Positions 4,654 to 23,701 of a DNA stretch of 23,701 bases are shown piece after piece. This DNA comes from a virus, in IMG/VR virus record IMGVR_UViG_3300043772_001164, positions 1 through 23,701 of that record; one strand, given 5' to 3'. The stretch's first letter is position 1; each line of letters begins with the position of its first letter. Both the position numbers and the translations under genes were made by a program. The notes beneath the pieces are model-generated. The model did not search any database. It was given only the letters and a program-made list of their open reading frames with translations, and was not told the DNA's origin.

Positions 4654-5712
4654 TTATGCGTTTTTTACTTCAATTTCATTCAAGTAATTTACTCCGTAGA
4701 AGTCATCACCAACATAGAACATATTGTCCGGTAAAGTAATGATTTGCGTCTGAGCAGTAACAGAAATTGAAAGTTCACCTGGACAGTCATCCTTGAACAA
4801 GATGTCAACAGGAACACCCGCGCGTGTGAATGCACCTAATCTAACATAGTTAGAACCTTGGATTGCTGCAGGAGGGAAACCATCTTTCCAACCAGCTAAC
4901 TGGTAAGATAACAATTGAACCGCACCTGGTTGAGTAACGATAGCTTTGTTTGGAGAACCTAAAGCAGAAGCAATACGCTTGTCATAAGCGAAAGCAGTAC
5001 CAAACATTCTTAATAATTCTTGAATGTTCAATCCGCTGTTAGTGCAGCAACCCGCCATTGCACGTTGGAATGCAGAATTGAAAGCAGGTCCACCAAAAGC
5101 AACTTCATTACCTGAGTAATTAGACATTGCAGTAGCTTGCTTTAATGTTTGTAACCATCCTGTTTGTTCACCTGTATTGAAACGTGTTGGAAGTTCAAGA
5201 ACATTAGAAGCAATTACACCTTCAGGATTTCCAGCTGTGTAGTAAGCTTCTGCAGAAGTTGAAAAGCTACCAATCAATGAAGCTACTTCTGTTGCAGATT
5301 GTGTTGCTACAGCTCTATCAATTACATCTAAATGCAAAGCTAATTTCTGATTCAATAACGCTGCATTGTTTGTGCAATATTCAGCAATATCTTCAGGGGA
5401 TAATGTTTCACCAGAAGTAATTGCAGGGTTAGTGATTTCGTACTCTTTTGTATTGTCACCAATAGCATCAAAAGGACCGCAAGCACCTTGCTCAGTTACT
5501 TGTGATTCTGGTAAACGTGGGAAGAAAGAAAGTTTAACTGTTCTTTTTTTTCCACCACCTGGAGCAACAAGTTGTGTAATTGCACGTGTGTTAACAGGAG
5601 AGTTTATGAACTCTAAAAATGGAAGCATCTCAGGTGCTTGACCTAATCCAAAAGCTTCAGAAAGTCCGGTTTGAATAGCGGGACATGCGCTATATATCGA
5701 GTTTAAAGACAT
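4654..5712 (-). CDS. Major capsid protein
   Basis: The 352-aa protein follows the scaffold gene and has its own promoter and terminator-insulated leader, as expected for the most abundant head protein. It has the composition of an HK97-fold capsid protein: an N-terminal arm (MSLNSIYSACPAIQTGLSEAF), a loop region rich in Gly and Lys (VAPGGGKKRTVKLSFF, about residues 48-63), a long helical spine segment (LSPEDIAEYCTNNAALLNQKLALHLDVIDRAV) and a mixed A-domain ending in beta strands. A CC pair occurs in MAGCCTNSG. By eye its codons look less AT-rich than in neighbouring genes, fitting high expression. No protease is encoded next to it, and the N-terminal arm gives no clear cleavage signal. Confidence 0.72.
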   Translation of the reverse strand: MSLNSIYSACPAIQTGLSEAFGLGQAPEMLPFLEFINSPVNTRAITQLVAPGGGKKRTVKLSFFPRLPESQVTEQGACGPFDAIGDNTKEYEITNPAITSGETLSPEDIAEYCTNNAALLNQKLALHLDVIDRAVATQSATEVASLIGSFSTSAEAYYTAGNPEGVIASNVLELPTRFNTGEQTGWLQTLKQATAMSNYSGNEVAFGGPAFNSAFQRAMAGCCTNSGLNIQELLRMFGTAFAYDKRIASALGSPNKAIVTQPGAVQLLSYQLAGWKDGFPPAAIQGSNYVRLGAFTRAGVPVDILFKDDCPGELSISVTAQTQIITLPDNMFYVGDDFYGVNYLNEIEVKNA

Positions 5713-5779
5713 TGTTTTATGTATTTATGATTTATGTTCTGTATAATGGTCGAACAAATCACCACAGGTTACATCTACA

Positions 5780-5800
5780 ATGCTGATGTTAAGCACAAGT
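5780..5800 (-). promoter_or_regulatory. Bipartite leader motif shared with the probable tail tube gene
   Basis: Read on the minus strand, ACTTGTGC (5800-5793) is followed after 7 nt by CAGCAT (5785-5780). The same two words, 10 nt apart, occur at 11925-11902 in the leader of the probable tail tube gene. In both cases the first word starts about 10-12 nt after the predicted transcription start. GUGC and GCAU could pair to form a short stem. It may be a translation or mRNA-stability element for abundant virion proteins; chance remains possible with only two copies. Confidence 0.35.
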
Positions 5801-5812
5801 GCCAATAATTTT

Positions 5813-5846
5813 ACAAATATAAATAAAATAAATAAAAAAGCCACAA
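5813..5846 (-). promoter_or_regulatory. Promoter of the major capsid operon
   Basis: TATATTTGT (5821-5813) matches the Bacteroidota -7 element, with a TTG (5846-5844) 22 nt upstream as -33 element. That TTG lies in the 3' arm of the terminator hairpin that ends the scaffold operon, so terminator and promoter share DNA. Predicted transcription start is near 5810, giving a leader of about 100 nt before the capsid ATG at 5712. Confidence 0.6.
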
Positions 5847-5865
5847 GAAACTTAATCCTTGTGGC
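5834..5865 (-). terminator. Rho-independent terminator after the scaffold gene
   Basis: On the minus strand an 8-bp perfect stem, GCCACAAG (5865-5858) with CTTGTGGC (5847-5840), encloses a 10-nt loop and is followed by TTTTTT (5839-5834). It lies 23 nt past the scaffold stop and would separate scaffold from capsid transcription. Confidence 0.85.
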
Positions 5866-5887
5866 TAAACTTAAAACTATAATTAAA

Positions 5888-6721
5888 TTAAAACTTACCA
5901 GACATTAATCTTGCACGTTCCGAAACAATACTTGGTGTTGGTATCCCTTGTGGTTCTTGTTTGTGTTCTATTTTCTTTGGTGCTTCTTTACCGTCGTGAG
6001 GTGACAAAGATATTAGCTTATTTGCAGCAGCTTCCATTTCAAACAATTCTCCAAAGTCAGCAAATCCCGCTTTTTTCTTTGATTGAATTCTTGCATTTGT
6101 AGCTAAGTCAACAACAAAAGGTTTTTCTTCTTCGTCCAATTCAATTTTATACTTTGAATTAAGATGTGCATTGAATCCAACCAATGTTAATTGGTCAAGA
6201 TCTGATCTTAACTTAATTTCTTTGATTGCTTCTTTTTTGTATTCGTTAATCTTGGAATTACGTTTTTCAGTCTTAACATTTAAATCCAATTCTTCATATT
6301 GCTTTTGCAAAGATGTAACAAGCCCCGTTGTTTCTTCTAACTTTTTCTTTTGGCTTTCATACTTCTTTTCCCATGCTTTCACAGCCTCGTCACCACCTCC
6401 ACTTGTAGATTTAATTTCTTCAAACTTGTTCTTGACTTTTGCGCTTCCAATCTTTAAAATTTCTTCTAACTTTTTCCCCTTTATTTCTTCAGGTTCAAAC
6501 TCTACTCCAATTCCTTTGTATTCGCGTATCGCTTCAGTCTGCAAACTTCCAAGTCTTGAACCAACTACTTTTGAAATAATTGCTTCGTCTTTTATTGCTT
6601 CGCTTTTACGGATGAAATCATTACCAAATAAATCTTTGGCAGCATCAATAGTTTCTGTTGTTTCGGGATCTATTCCCATGAACTTTATAAGTTCAATTGC
6701 TTCTTCTGGTTTTATAGGCAT
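5888..6721 (-). CDS. Capsid scaffolding protein
   Basis: The 277-aa product is almost entirely helical and highly charged, with a Lys/Glu-rich coiled-coil stretch around residues 115-175 (EAVKAWEKKYESQKKKLEE and following). It lies immediately before the major capsid gene, the usual place for a scaffold that guides procapsid assembly and leaves before DNA packaging. The C-terminal tail (PSIVSERARLMSGKF) is basic, as is typical for the capsid-contacting end of scaffolds. No Ser-His-Asp protease domain is seen. It follows the 71-aa gene by 12 nt and ends at a strong terminator, so scaffold output is controlled apart from capsid output. Confidence 0.75.
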   Translation of the reverse strand: MPIKPEEAIELIKFMGIDPETTETIDAAKDLFGNDFIRKSEAIKDEAIISKVVGSRLGSLQTEAIREYKGIGVEFEPEEIKGKKLEEILKIGSAKVKNKFEEIKSTSGGGDEAVKAWEKKYESQKKKLEETTGLVTSLQKQYEELDLNVKTEKRNSKINEYKKEAIKEIKLRSDLDQLTLVGFNAHLNSKYKIELDEEEKPFVVDLATNARIQSKKKAGFADFGELFEMEAAANKLISLSPHDGKEAPKKIEHKQEPQGIPTPSIVSERARLMSGKF

Positions 6722-9743: not shown

Positions 9744-9859
9744 TTAACTTTAGTTTTAGTTTTTAGTGTTGCTTCACCTTCGTAGTTAGCACCTTTTTTA
9801 CCACCACAGCAAGCCTTTACGCTGCATGTAACTATTACTTTTTTTGCTGAATTTTTCAT
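9737..9859 (-). CDS. Small 40-aa Cys-rich basic protein
   Basis: This ORF starts with an ATGA overlap on the methyltransferase stop (9859-9856) and its TAA lies inside the portal start (9739-9737), so it bridges two genes with no spare bases. The product has four Cys (one TC, one ACC pair, one at the C-terminus), a GGKKG turn and many Lys. It has no membrane segment. I do not recognise it. Position suggests a link either to the sugar-modifying pair upstream or to the portal. It is too short for routine gene callers, and its support is the coupling geometry and a composition unlike random sequence. Confidence 0.6.
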   Translation of the reverse strand: MKNSAKKVIVTCSVKACCGGKKGANYEGEATLKTKTKVKC

Positions 9860-10407
9860 GCCTTAGTTATTAATGTTAATCCTCTATTATCTGGTGTGCG
9901 TAATTTAAGAATATTATATCCATAATTGGAAATGTAATCCATTAATCTTGCAACATCTTCAATATGGTCTGTATCATGGTAAGCAATAACACCACCTGAA
10001 GCAATCCACTTTTCAACAATCTTCCATTCAGGAAGTATGTGCTGCCAATGGTGCATTGAATCTACAAATATAAAATCAAATTTGTCTGTGAAATCTTGAA
10101 ATGTTGAAGCTTCTGTTGAACTTCCTTTTATAAAATCCGCAACCGCCCCTTTGTTTGCCTTCCATTTAGAAGTTCTAAAATCACCAATGTCAATGCCTGC
10201 AAAATAAGAATCTTTAGGCATGTTTTTAATGATTTCAACAGACGTTTCACCCTGAAAAACACCTATTTCAAGTGCGCGTTTAGGCTGTATCATTGCAACC
10301 AAAGCACCCACAAAAGAACAAACTTCTGCTTCACTATTCCATAAATGACGTTCCCCATCTACTTTAGCGTCATTCATCATTTGCTCTATTTCACCGTTTG
10401 TTAGCAT
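9856..10407 (-). CDS. Class I SAM-dependent methyltransferase
   Basis: The 183-aa protein shows the class I fold: motif I RALEIGVFQGETS (about residues 44-56) for SAM binding, an acidic GID at 71-73 after strand 2, FDFIFVDSMHHWQ in strand 4, and GGVIAYHDTDH in strand 5. The VD...H and YHDTDH motifs resemble small-molecule or sugar O-methyltransferases (the Methyltransf_24 type) and not DNA methylases: there is no (D/N)PPY or PC motif. It overlaps the glycosyltransferase by 17 nt, so the pair is probably made together and may build a methylated sugar. The acceptor cannot be read from sequence. Confidence 0.82.
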   Translation of the reverse strand: MLTNGEIEQMMNDAKVDGERHLWNSEAEVCSFVGALVAMIQPKRALEIGVFQGETSVEIIKNMPKDSYFAGIDIGDFRTSKWKANKGAVADFIKGSSTEASTFQDFTDKFDFIFVDSMHHWQHILPEWKIVEKWIASGGVIAYHDTDHIEDVARLMDYISNYGYNILKLRTPDNRGLTLITKA

Positions 10408-11281
10408 GTTTGTCTGTTATTATCTTATCAAGTGTGTAATTATGATTAATGCCCTTTGCAAAGTGCAAGTCACGTAATATTTTATCACACCAATCTGTGT
10501 AAAACTTATTGGTGAATCCTTTGCCCCCATAATAAGATTGTAAATAAAATTTTTCTCTTACTTCCAATGTTGTTAATGTTCTTTTCATGGCAAAGTGAAT
10601 CATTCCTTCTTTGTCATCATTACCTTTACCATCAATTGAAGGATCAATTCCTAATGCAGCTAATGCAACATTCATGTATAATTCATCTGGTTGCACACCG
10701 CCCCACTTCATTCTTAATTTTGCCAATGGATTTTGATAAAACTCCAATGCTTTTTTGTAGATTGGTTCCGCTCCTACCTTATTAATCCAAACTAAACTTG
10801 AATTTATTGCTGGCAAAACTGCTTCTTCAGACAATCCAAAGTGCGCCCACAAATCATTTGCCCAAGCCCATTGCATGGATGGGATGTCGTTCCCTTCTTT
10901 TAATGTGTGATAACCAACTGTATGTGCTATGTATGGTTTGTTTGCACCTTGCAATTGTGCAATTAATGGTGTAATATCTTTTACAGCAACCGCGTCAACA
11001 TCCAAATAAAGCGCATTGTCTGTGGTTATGTAATGGTGTAAATGTAATTTACTCCATGCTGGATCATTATTTCTAATGTGACCAAGTTCCATTTCAATTA
11101 TAGAATCGAAAAGTTCTATCCTGTGTCCAATATTTTTTGTAAGGTTTGCAAGAGAATCAACAATCAGATGTATTGGAGTATTGCACCCCAATTCTTTAAT
11201 AGAAAATGCAATGTTGTAAGCTGCGAAGTAATAACCTCGTTTGCCAAATGCCATTAAAATAATTGCTGTTGATTTGCTCAT
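10391..11281 (-). CDS. GT-A type glycosyltransferase (GT8-like)
   Basis: The 296-aa protein carries a GT-A signature: an N-terminal nucleotide-binding strand (STAIILMAFGKRGYYFA), a KLHLHHYI helix (78-85) and YLDVDAVAV (92-100) with the DVD metal/UDP-sugar motif at 94-96. A later NSSLVWIN and QPDELYMN fit the acceptor half. The ATG comes directly after the T-run of the preceding terminator, so expression probably relies on read-through. With the overlapping methyltransferase it forms a sugar-modification pair embedded in structural genes. Possible targets are virion proteins, phage DNA bases or a host surface glycan; virion decoration fits the late position best. Confidence 0.75.
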   Translation of the reverse strand: MSKSTAIILMAFGKRGYYFAAYNIAFSIKELGCNTPIHLIVDSLANLTKNIGHRIELFDSIIEMELGHIRNNDPAWSKLHLHHYITTDNALYLDVDAVAVKDITPLIAQLQGANKPYIAHTVGYHTLKEGNDIPSMQWAWANDLWAHFGLSEEAVLPAINSSLVWINKVGAEPIYKKALEFYQNPLAKLRMKWGGVQPDELYMNVALAALGIDPSIDGKGNDDKEGMIHFAMKRTLTTLEVREKFYLQSYYGGKGFTNKFYTDWCDKILRDLHFAKGINHNYTLDKIITDKHANKR

Positions 11282-21525: not shown

Positions 21526-21706
21526 GTAACCTTGTGTGTAAAATATCACTTGTTGCGCCTGTTTCTACATTTTTAATGGTGTGGATGTGTGGCTTTACGT
21601 TTGTGGCCACAATTTCAAAATTGACACCATTGTGAGAGAAATAACATGAATCAATAGTAAGTAATCCTATTTGCTCTTTAAGTGGTCTGTATAATTTGCT
21701 TGACAT
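21506..21706 (-). CDS. Small 66-aa protein of unknown function
   Basis: The product begins MSSKLYRPLKEQIGLLTIDS and has a beta-rich middle (NGVNFEIVATNVKPHIHTIK) with no Cys cluster, signal peptide or membrane segment. It overlaps the nuclease gene by 29 nt and is the last gene before a terminator, so the two are co-transcribed. I do not recognise the family. Linkage to a nuclease next to a putative origin suggests a DNA-metabolism accessory, which is only a guess. Confidence 0.6.
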   Translation of the reverse strand: MSSKLYRPLKEQIGLLTIDSCYFSHNGVNFEIVATNVKPHIHTIKNVETGATSDILHTRLLALSET

Positions 21707-22022
21707 AGTTCTGGAATGTTTCTAAATTTCTAATTACTACAACTTGCCCTTGGTGGTTACTTATTGCTTCAATCCACTTTACTTGGTTTTCTGATAAACG
21801 CCCCGTTTCAATCTTTAGTTCAATGAAATGCATTTGTCCTTTGTAGAAGAAATGAAGATCAGCAACACCAGGTACAAGCCCAATGGCTTTAAATTTATTA
21901 GCTTCACTTGCGGACCGCTGCCCACCATTTGGGACATGCCACAATAGCCCGCGTAATTCAGGAAATGAATTGTGGAACCATTGATAGCAATCTGCTTGTA
22001 AACGTTCTTCTGAAATGTTCAT
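21678..22022 (-). CDS. VRR-NUC domain nuclease
   Basis: The start at 22022 is chosen over an upstream ATG at 22067 because a -7 element lies exactly 3 nt before it and the residues upstream look non-coding; it gives 114 aa. The VRR-NUC fold (PD-(D/E)xK superfamily) is evident: a helix with ERLQADCYQWF, WHVPNGGQR, GLVPGVADLHF with D55, HFIELK with E68 and K70, and ENQVKW with Q80. Phage stand-alone VRR-NUC proteins are structure-specific nucleases, probably processing branched replication or packaging intermediates. It lies between the putative origin and the terminase genes, which fits that role. Confidence 0.88.
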   Translation of the reverse strand: MNISEERLQADCYQWFHNSFPELRGLLWHVPNGGQRSASEANKFKAIGLVPGVADLHFFYKGQMHFIELKIETGRLSENQVKWIEAISNHQGQVVVIRNLETFQNYVKQIIQTT

Positions 22023-22025
22023 TAG

Positions 22026-22034
22026 GCAAATATA
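22026..22034 (-). promoter_or_regulatory. -7 promoter element abutting the VRR-NUC start codon
   Basis: TATATTTGC (22034-22026) followed by CTA and the ATG at 22022. No good TTG is found at the usual distance; the inverted repeat at 22046-22076 occupies the -33 region, so a protein bound there could control this promoter. Confidence 0.6.
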
Positions 22035-22045
22035 TAAAATTATTT

Positions 22046-22320
22046 TGCTGCCAGATAGTATTTTCATCTGTCAGCAAGGAAATGCTTGTTAGAGTAAGGC
22101 TTTACAACATTTGCTGACAGCTGACAGATGTTTTTGTGTTTTTGACATTTATATAAATAACTATATAAATAATTTAGTGTAAATAATATTTATTTTCTAT
22201 TATAGTTTTTAATTACTTTTATCTGTCATCTGTCAGCAAATAGAATATAAGTGTTGATAGAGTAAGAAGATAGCGCAGACAGATGTGCTGCCAGATGAAT
22301 TTTATCTGTCAGCAATGGCA
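22046..22320 (-). repeat. Nested inverted repeats with AT-rich core: candidate origin/operator
   Basis: The gene-free stretch 22023-22378 (356 bp) holds repeats of the half-site TGCTGMCAGAT. An outer pair of imperfect palindromes has identical arms: TGCTGCCAGAT...ATCTGTCAGCA at 22046-22076 (9-nt gap) and again at 22286-22314 (7-nt gap). An inner pair, TGCTGACAGcTGACAGAT (22112-22129) and ATCTGTCaTCTGTCAGCA (22221-22238), is an 18-bp inverted repeat with one mismatch. A further CAGACAGAT is at 22276-22284. TAGAGTAAG occurs at 22090-22098 and 22258-22266. Between the inner arms lies DNA of about 10% GC (22141-22220), including two TATATAAATAA units (22150-22160, 22162-22172). The arrangement is symmetric about 22175-22180. 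Iterons plus an AT-rich unwinding element next to a replicative ATPase gene resemble an origin; operator clusters would look similar. Confidence 0.7.
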
Positions 22321-22322
22321 GC

Positions 22323-22357
22323 AAAAAAAAAGCCTCTCAAAATCAATTGAAAGGCTT
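22323..22357 (-). terminator. Rho-independent terminator after the VapE-like gene
   Basis: On the minus strand an 11-bp stem with one mismatch, arms 22357-22347 and 22340-22330, closes a 6-nt loop and runs into a T tract (complement of the A-run 22323-22331). It lies 21 nt past the stop codon and separates the replication gene from the repeat region. Confidence 0.85.
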
Positions 22358-22378: not shown

Positions 22379-23701
22379 TTAAAACGGCAATTCGTCTGAA
22401 AGTTTTGGAAAAAATGCGGGTTCAATTCCGGCTAACATTTGTGCAGCATTTTGAGAAAGTGGAACGCAGTAATAAACTCTTTTTGCTTCATGTCCAATTC
22501 GATCTTGAATAAATCCAAGTGCTTTTAATTCGCGTCCAACAACAATTGGAGAAAGTTTTTGTCTAGATTCTGCTTCGATATAAACAAGTATGTCTGTTGT
22601 AGTAAGTGGTGTGCCTTTTTCTTTTGTTGTAGGATTAAAATACTTTTGGATAAGTTCCTTTGCTGTGGATGGTGTTGTGTACTTGTAATCGTGCTTGTTT
22701 AGGTATAAAATATCTTCTTTGGATAGTTCGTAGTTATAACCTGACTTATAAAGGTTGTAAGCTTCCATAAATAATGCTGTTTTATTTACTTGGTTGTAAG
22801 CTTCAAAGTCATAACCTTGGAAATCAATTACAATGTTTCTTCTGTTTCCTGTAATGTCGTTTAAGATTTCTTCTAGGTTGGTTGTTCCGCATAACATTGC
22901 AAGTCGTTGTAAAGTTACATTTCCACGTCCGTAAGGTTTACGAATATTAAAGAATTGCTTTGAGCTGGTAGACTTTTGATGCTGTTCATCTTTCTTTGAC
23001 TTGCCCCCGCATTCATCGTCAATAATCAATAGCATTTGTGTCATTAAAAGGTAAAAATCCACATCTTTCATACCAGGTGAAACTTCGCCAATGTATTTAT
23101 GCAATGGTTCTGGAAGGATTCTTCTTAAAAATTGTGTTTTACCAGAATTTTGATTTCCCTGAAGAATTAACATTAATGGTGAATGGTGGCCGTGGATGGA
23201 AGCAATCATTGCAACAAGCCATTTTGTAATAAAGAATTCGGCAAAATCAGGATCAATTGTTTTTATGGTGCTTGCAATGGCTTTAATGTGTCCTGTTGAG
23301 GTGTAATGTGTATTTGACGAAATAAACTCCAACAAAGGGTTAAATGAAGGTATAAAGTTAGAATGTATGAGCTTGTCAAATATGCTGAATTGCGCTTTTG
23401 GAATTACTTTTAGGATTGCAATGTACATTGAATTGATTTGTTCTTCTTCCTGTGGCTTTGTTTGGTCCTCAATTAACTGAGTAATGATATTTTTTTTAAG
23501 GTCGTAATTTGAACGAATAAACAATTCCATTTGACTAACAATGTCCAATTGATCTGTTGGAGTGTTGGAACTTGAACTTATTTTTTCAATTGTTTCGGGT
23601 AAAACCGTAATATCTTCAAATTTCTTTAAATTGTTAGATATTGTTGCGGCTGATAGCCCTGCAGATTTACCTTGCTTTGCAGCTTGAATTATTTTCTTAC
23701 T
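22379..23701 (-). CDS. VapE-like P-loop ATPase (primase-helicase type), 5' end outside window
   Basis: A start at 23548 would be a TTG, but the frame stays open for 51 more codons to the window edge, so the gene is truncated by the window and its N-terminal part is missing. The 440 visible residues contain the virulence-associated E / D5-like helicase core: Walker A GNQNSGKT (182-189), Walker B LLIIDDE (224-230), PYGR, CGTTN (271-275) and the sensor/arginine segment TGNRR (284-288). The C-terminal 100 residues look like a winged-helix domain (TTTDILVYIEAESRQKLSP). Such proteins act as phage replicative helicase, often fused to a primase domain, which would lie off the right edge. Its place beside the repeat region supports a role in replication initiation. 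It ends at a strong terminator. Confidence 0.85.
   Translation of the reverse strand, partial: SKKIIQAAKQGKSAGLSAATISNNLKKFEDITVLPETIEKISSSSNTPTDQLDIVSQMELFIRSNYDLKKNIITQLIEDQTKPQEEEQINSMYIAILKVIPKAQFSIFDKLIHSNFIPSFNPLLEFISSNTHYTSTGHIKAIASTIKTIDPDFAEFFITKWLVAMIASIHGHHSPLMLILQGNQNSGKTQFLRRILPEPLHKYIGEVSPGMKDVDFYLLMTQMLLIIDDECGGKSKKDEQHQKSTSSKQFFNIRKPYGRGNVTLQRLAMLCGTTNLEEILNDITGNRRNIVIDFQGYDFEAYNQVNKTALFMEAYNLYKSGYNYELSKEDILYLNKHDYKYTTPSTAKELIQKYFNPTTKEKGTPLTTTDILVYIEAESRQKLSPIVVGRELKALGFIQDRIGHEAKRVYYCVPLSQNAAQMLAGIEPAFFPKLSDELPF

Follow-up and report, generated by a model that had tools for sequence, protein, structure and literature searches.

Gene neighbourhood of the vapE-adjacent gap

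The window, meaning the whole stretch of DNA analysed here, is a 23.7-kb piece of a tailed phage, taken from a collection of viral sequences and carrying terminase, portal and tape-measure genes. It ends within vapE, and among named phages the closest relatives of the encoded VapE come from phages whose hosts are Flavobacteriia. A non-coding gap of ~360 bp separates vapE from a gene for a VRR-NUC nuclease on the same strand, and the following features border it:

21678-22022, minus strand: VRR-NUC nuclease gene, first past the putative origin (PF08774, 8.5e-9; start ATG at 22022)
22027-22034, minus strand: Bacteroidetes-type -7 promoter box TATATTTG before the VRR-NUC gene (kept in relatives L005, L008 and L009)
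22330-22357, minus strand: intrinsic terminator that ends the vapE transcript, bordering the putative origin (kept in relatives L005, L006 and L009)
22379-23701, minus strand: vapE, encoding an SF3-type primase-helicase and proposed initiator (PF05272, E 4e-30); 5' end truncated at the window edge

The gap starts directly after the vapE stop codon, which is the order of initiator gene and then origin found in the PICI/SaPI-type pri-rep-ori origin. Past the gap, the genes run VRR-NUC, a small ORF, small terminase and large terminase, with the small terminase ~600 bp downstream. The initial annotation had placed positions 22046-22320, described as free of coding sequence, beside a VapE-like replicative ATPase and between a terminator and a promoter. 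The stretch indeed falls in the non-coding gap between vapE and the VRR-NUC gene, the ATPase assignment is confirmed by the PF05272 match, and the terminator was recovered on the minus strand (22357-22330); the promoter, however, is represented by a -7 box of the Bacteroidetes type, the consensus of which is TAnnTTTG, and not by a clear sigma-70 site.

Two further observations concern other parts of the window. A small plus-strand gene at 36-545 gave a weak, sub-threshold match to the CHU_C type IX secretion signal, which is unusual in a phage. At 9856-11281, between structural genes, a Methyltransf_24 gene (PF13578) adjoins a glycosyltransferase-like gene without a Pfam match, and a comparable annotated pair, gp41-gp42, is present in Cellulophaga phage phi17:1.

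Repeats and A/T-rich core in the gap

The gap contains nested repeats arranged symmetrically around an A/T-rich core:

22046-22076, no strand: outer palindrome on the VRR-NUC side, TGCTGCCAGAT-9bp-ATCTGTCAGCA (arms 22046-22056 and 22066-22076)
22086-22098, plus strand: second direct repeat, copy 1, TTGTTAGAGTAAG
22109-22129, plus strand: inner iteron arm on the VRR-NUC side, ATTTGCTGACAGCTGACAGAT
22130-22220, no strand: A/T-rich core of 91 bp, 12% GC (best 80 bp, 10%), proposed DNA unwinding element
22221-22241, minus strand: inner iteron arm on the vapE side, two overlapping half-sites, ATTTGCTGACAGATGACAGAT on the vapE strand
22254-22266, plus strand: second direct repeat, copy 2, TTGATAGAGTAAG
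22275-22323, no strand: outer repeat set on the vapE side, GCAGACAGATG, the palindrome TGCTGCCAGAT...ATCTGTCAGCA (arms 22286-22296 and 22304-22314), then TGGCAGCA

Both outer palindromes proposed earlier are present, but their arms, taken as identical, differ by one base (TGCCAGAT vs TGACAGAT). The inner inverted repeat likewise stands, with arms of 21 bp rather than 18 bp (22109-22129 and 22221-22241) that are 95% complementary and 91 bp apart. The central 80 bp of about 10% GC correspond to 22139-22218, which hold 8 G/C and two TATATAAATAA units; no other 80-mer of the window is as poor in GC, and outside this region the lowest count is 14 G/C. The second direct repeat, TTGWTAGAGTAAG, has one copy on each side of the core, between the inner and outer sets (22086-22098 and 22254-22266), and is kept in the L005 and L009 clades and absent in L008.

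The half-site motif TGMCAGAT, from which the outer palindromes are also built, has seven matches in the window, all within the gap, against 1.47 expected, and none of 100 shuffles reached seven. An inverted-arm detector, which looks for arms 50-160 bp apart and was used with a threshold of at least 13, scored the gap at 18, compared with a maximum of 14 among 415 control stretches. The inverted repeat, the detector score and the GC content of the core together establish two iteron sets flanking an A/T-rich region.

Conservation in close relatives

Six viral contigs encode a VapE 64-98% identical to that of the window, and the layout is kept in all six, with half-sites at the same place, a strongly positive outcome of the comparison that the initial annotation had suggested and one that supports its proposal of a replication origin. 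The core heptamer TGACAGA is constant, while the bases preceding it switch together at most copies, being TGC in the window, L004 and L005, TAC in L006 and L009, and TTT in L007 and L008. Such concerted change at most half-site copies is the pattern expected from a trans-acting DNA-binding protein. The gap holds seven of the seven half-site copies in the window, six of seven in G006 and seven of eight in G005, and two relatives of 36-39 kb have at most one exact copy each outside it.

A DNA-binding protein could also act on these repeats as a phage regulator switching the promoter before the VRR-NUC, terminase and structural genes, the gap being an operator region only and replication starting elsewhere. 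The -7 box TATATTTG, kept by three clades and separated from the outer palindrome by 11 bp, fits such a role, as does the termination of vapE transcription at the gap. An operator, however, has no need for a core of 80-90 bp at 10% GC between mirrored tandem arms, the half-sites are hardly present elsewhere in the genomes, and the layout still follows vapE where the next gene encodes a helicase, so we regard this explanation as very improbable.

GC skew was rejected as proof of an origin: the cumulative minimum of the window fragment, at 21950, adjoins the gap, but complete relatives have their global minimum away from it, apparently following gene direction.

Distribution across VapE lineages

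A VapE protein profile retrieved 80 loci, which were grouped together with annotated phages into 34 lineages at 80% identity. Each locus was scanned without bias for its densest cluster of repeated 8-mers, and the cluster was scored if it lay no more than 700 bp after the vapE stop. This was the case in 24 of the 34 lineages (~2.7 expected), and the repeated words varied by lineage: TGACAGAT, CCTTACTAC, TGACTACA, GGTTACAC, GTTAAGGA and GGTAACC. Inverted tandem-iteron arms scored at least 13 in 14 of the 34 lineages, compared with 0.24% of the 415 controls, and in 11 of these 14 the core measured 76-91 bp. Several lineages of the same scan have no such element after vapE, namely phi46:1/L069, L039, L076 and L093.

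Isolated phages with a comparable layout are mumin6-1, FPSV-S1, phi17:1 (by eye), pippi8-1 and Streptococcus phage SW6. Among ten more phages with weaker VapE matches, the main repeat cluster lies just 3' of vapE in Streptococcus phages SW6, Javan640 and Taco and in Flavobacterium phage pippi8-1, with clear mirrored arms in SW6 and pippi8-1. No such layout follows vapE in the proteobacterial VapE phages FoX2, ep3 and Persinger, or in Leuconostoc phage LN03, phi47:1 and BF503P1. With differing repeat letters, the layout recurs after vapE in numerous phages of Bacteroidota and in a few of Streptococcus.

The gene past the gap encodes VRR-NUC in the window, an SF2 helicase in L081, L084 and L086, and an SF1 helicase in L079. 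Since the gene beyond the gap varies, vapE is the constant neighbour, and the element has no fixed link with terminase or VRR-NUC. This bears on a further alternative, in which the small terminase binds the gap as a recognition region for packaging (pac/cos). The next genes of the window, VRR-NUC, a small ORF and both terminase subunits, would suit such a function; nevertheless, replication helicases adjoin the same element in many lineages and the repeats track vapE, which leaves a packaging site hardly credible.

Two other features of these loci were recorded. A stand-alone Bac_DnaA_C helix-turn-helix protein is encoded in the replication module of one relative (L081:8147-8491), and such a protein is also annotated in mumin6-1 (gp028) and phi46:1 (gp40). 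Dense short tandem repeats (e.g. GGTTTCCGGCGACGCG and GTAGCTAAGAAAGCT) occur in coding-like stretches near vapE in L107 (~9600), L119 (~6125) and L081 (~2850).

VapE as the likely initiator

The half-sites had previously been assigned to an unknown initiator, for which the most likely candidate is VapE itself. In the full-length relative L009, VapE comprises BT4734-like (PF08800), PriCT_2 and VapE domains. An AlphaFold (AF2) model of the 440 residues encoded in the window (pLDDT 86) found its best PDB match in 7PDS, with Z 23.9 over residues 4-414, followed by NrS-1 (Z 15.4) and the SaPI5 primase-helicase (Z 12.6). The title of entry 7PDS reads "PriRep1 with dsDNA", and the chain carries the name "Similar to D. 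nodosus vapE"; PriRep1 is the protein of SaPI1. A C-terminal winged helix is predicted at residues ~362-414 of 440, consisting of a helix, a helix and a two-stranded wing. The PF05272 and 7PDS matches and this predicted winged helix suggest that VapE, like PICI/SaPI initiators, joins an SF3/AAA+ helicase to a C-terminal DNA-binding domain.

Covariation between the iterons and the VapE C-terminus appeared in a first run (partial r 0.35, p 0.0005) and was lost on removal of the window clade (r 0.06, p 0.20); it was dropped as support, the signal being present only when the window's own clade was included.

L034 and L035 come from otherwise near-identical phages (mostly 97-100%) in which the helicase and winged-helix segment of vapE has been replaced, with ~60-80% DNA identity, whereas the repeat region is 99-100% identical in a sliding comparison (locus ~4950-6100). 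The pair thus represents a natural domain swap in vapE over an unchanged origin, and its use as a case of co-inheritance of C-terminus and origin was rejected for that reason. A donor of the swapped segment was looked for and none was found. Either the heptamer is recognised by both winged helices alike, or another protein reads it. On the sequence comparison, the swap would be tolerable for VapE as the reader if both helices read TGACAGA, and it is no demonstration of pairing.

The gap might accordingly be an origin at which a different protein of phage or host reads the repeats and VapE is only the helicase that is loaded. Outside the window clade, changes in the iterons show no specific link to the VapE C-terminus, L035 swapped its winged helix with iterons unchanged, and a protein with a DnaA-C helix-turn-helix is encoded nearby in some relatives (L081), all of which would agree with a separate reader. 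Against it, the modelled winged helix of VapE is positioned as in PriRep1, no alternative binder constantly adjoins the gap, and the characterised SaPI Rep and Cch2 themselves bind iterons, via their C-terminal domains (PMC7581432). A reader other than VapE is therefore considered unlikely.

Comparison with known origins

In PICIs the origin is found 3' of rep and has two sets of iterons around an AT-rich region, and pri-ori plasmids replicate (PMC6092414). The mirror symmetry, which the initial annotation had seen as more regular than in the usual direct-repeat origins, is thus not exceptional: the published PICI/SaPI design likewise has an iteron set on either side of an AT-rich stretch and sits directly 3' of the initiator gene (PMC6092414, PMC7581432). 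The SaPI/PICI replicons SaPI1, SaPIbov1, SaPI5 and EcCICFT073 resemble the gap in having the origin directly 3' of the gene for the primase-helicase/initiator, in the pair of iteron sets on either side of an AT-rich region, and in an initiator combining an AAA+/SF3 helicase with a C-terminal winged helix, the nearest solved structure to the VapE model being PriRep1. They differ in that the present elements belong not to satellites but to tailed phages that encode terminase, portal and tail proteins of their own, and have other iteron letters, added outer palindromes and an N-terminal primase module of the BT4734-like and PriCT_2 type. Classification of the window itself as a PICI/SaPI satellite was rejected, since genes for both terminase subunits, portal and tape measure are present and the relatives, contigs or phages, measure 36-39 kb.

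In S. thermophilus phage Sfi21, a 302-bp noncoding element is an infection-activated origin (PMC6356513). This Sfi21-type ori (PER element) resembles the gap in being a short noncoding stretch that lies in a tailed phage's replication module; hosts and iterons differ. Streptococcus phage SW6 has GGTAAC iterons mirrored about an AT core directly after a VapE-like helicase; its gap DNA matched streptococcal phages only, with no record named Sfi21 among them. A blastn comparison of the window gap with the phage collection gave no match, and no DNA homology to a streptococcal phage origin was found.

The putative cch2 origin of SCCmec also has repeats directly downstream of a self-loading helicase, Cch2, which binds them by its C-terminal domain; three short iterons are present there, and the available text of PMC7581432 describes no mirrored two-sided layout with an AT core.

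Lambda-type and plasmid iteron origins likewise place iterons beside an AT-rich unwinding element. Their iterons are direct repeats on one side of that element and a separate helicase loader is used, whereas the gap has iterons mirrored on both sides and the helicase is the likely initiator.

Proposed mechanism and implications

The gap is very probably the replication origin of this phage, built on the PICI/SaPI pri-rep-ori design, with iterons that VapE would bind. VapE, encoded just upstream, would bind the TGACAGA iterons through its C-terminal winged helix. Because the inner tandem iteron pairs face each other over the 91-bp A/T core, two VapE rings would load as mirror images; they would melt the core and send two forks apart, and the N-terminal primase module would lay primers. 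The outer palindromes would supply extra binding sites for nucleation, copy control or shut-off of the adjoining promoter, and the palindrome beside the -7 box could, speculatively, couple initiation to transcription of the VRR-NUC and packaging genes.

The PICI origin design and the short Sfi21 phage origin are already published (PMC6092414, PMC6356513), so that the notable part is the spread of the layout, hitherto described mainly for phage satellites such as SaPIs, through ordinary phages, and its constant geometry under drifting letters. No description of VapE origins or of Flavobacterium/Bacteroidota phage origins was found in the literature searched (open-licence papers). A wider reading, which we put forward tentatively as a real possibility, is that VapE phages of Bacteroidota and streptococci share the mirrored geometry (a core of ~76-91 bp between tandem iteron pairs) and let the iteron letters drift freely with the initiator, giving a fast-changing origin-specificity code that sets which phages and satellites cross-replicate or exclude each other.

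VapE/VirE genes were still classed as virulence-related in a 2025 paper on Cellulophaga phage phi18:1 (PMC11946311), and an origin of this kind would account for the role of such "virulence-associated" genes in phages. It would provide a simple origin-finding rule for uncultured phages, just 3' of vapE, and would yield naturally diverged initiator-origin pairs suited to specificity tests with cultured phages in non-pathogen systems. An origin after vapE in many tailed phages would unite the replication modules of satellites and phages under one design.
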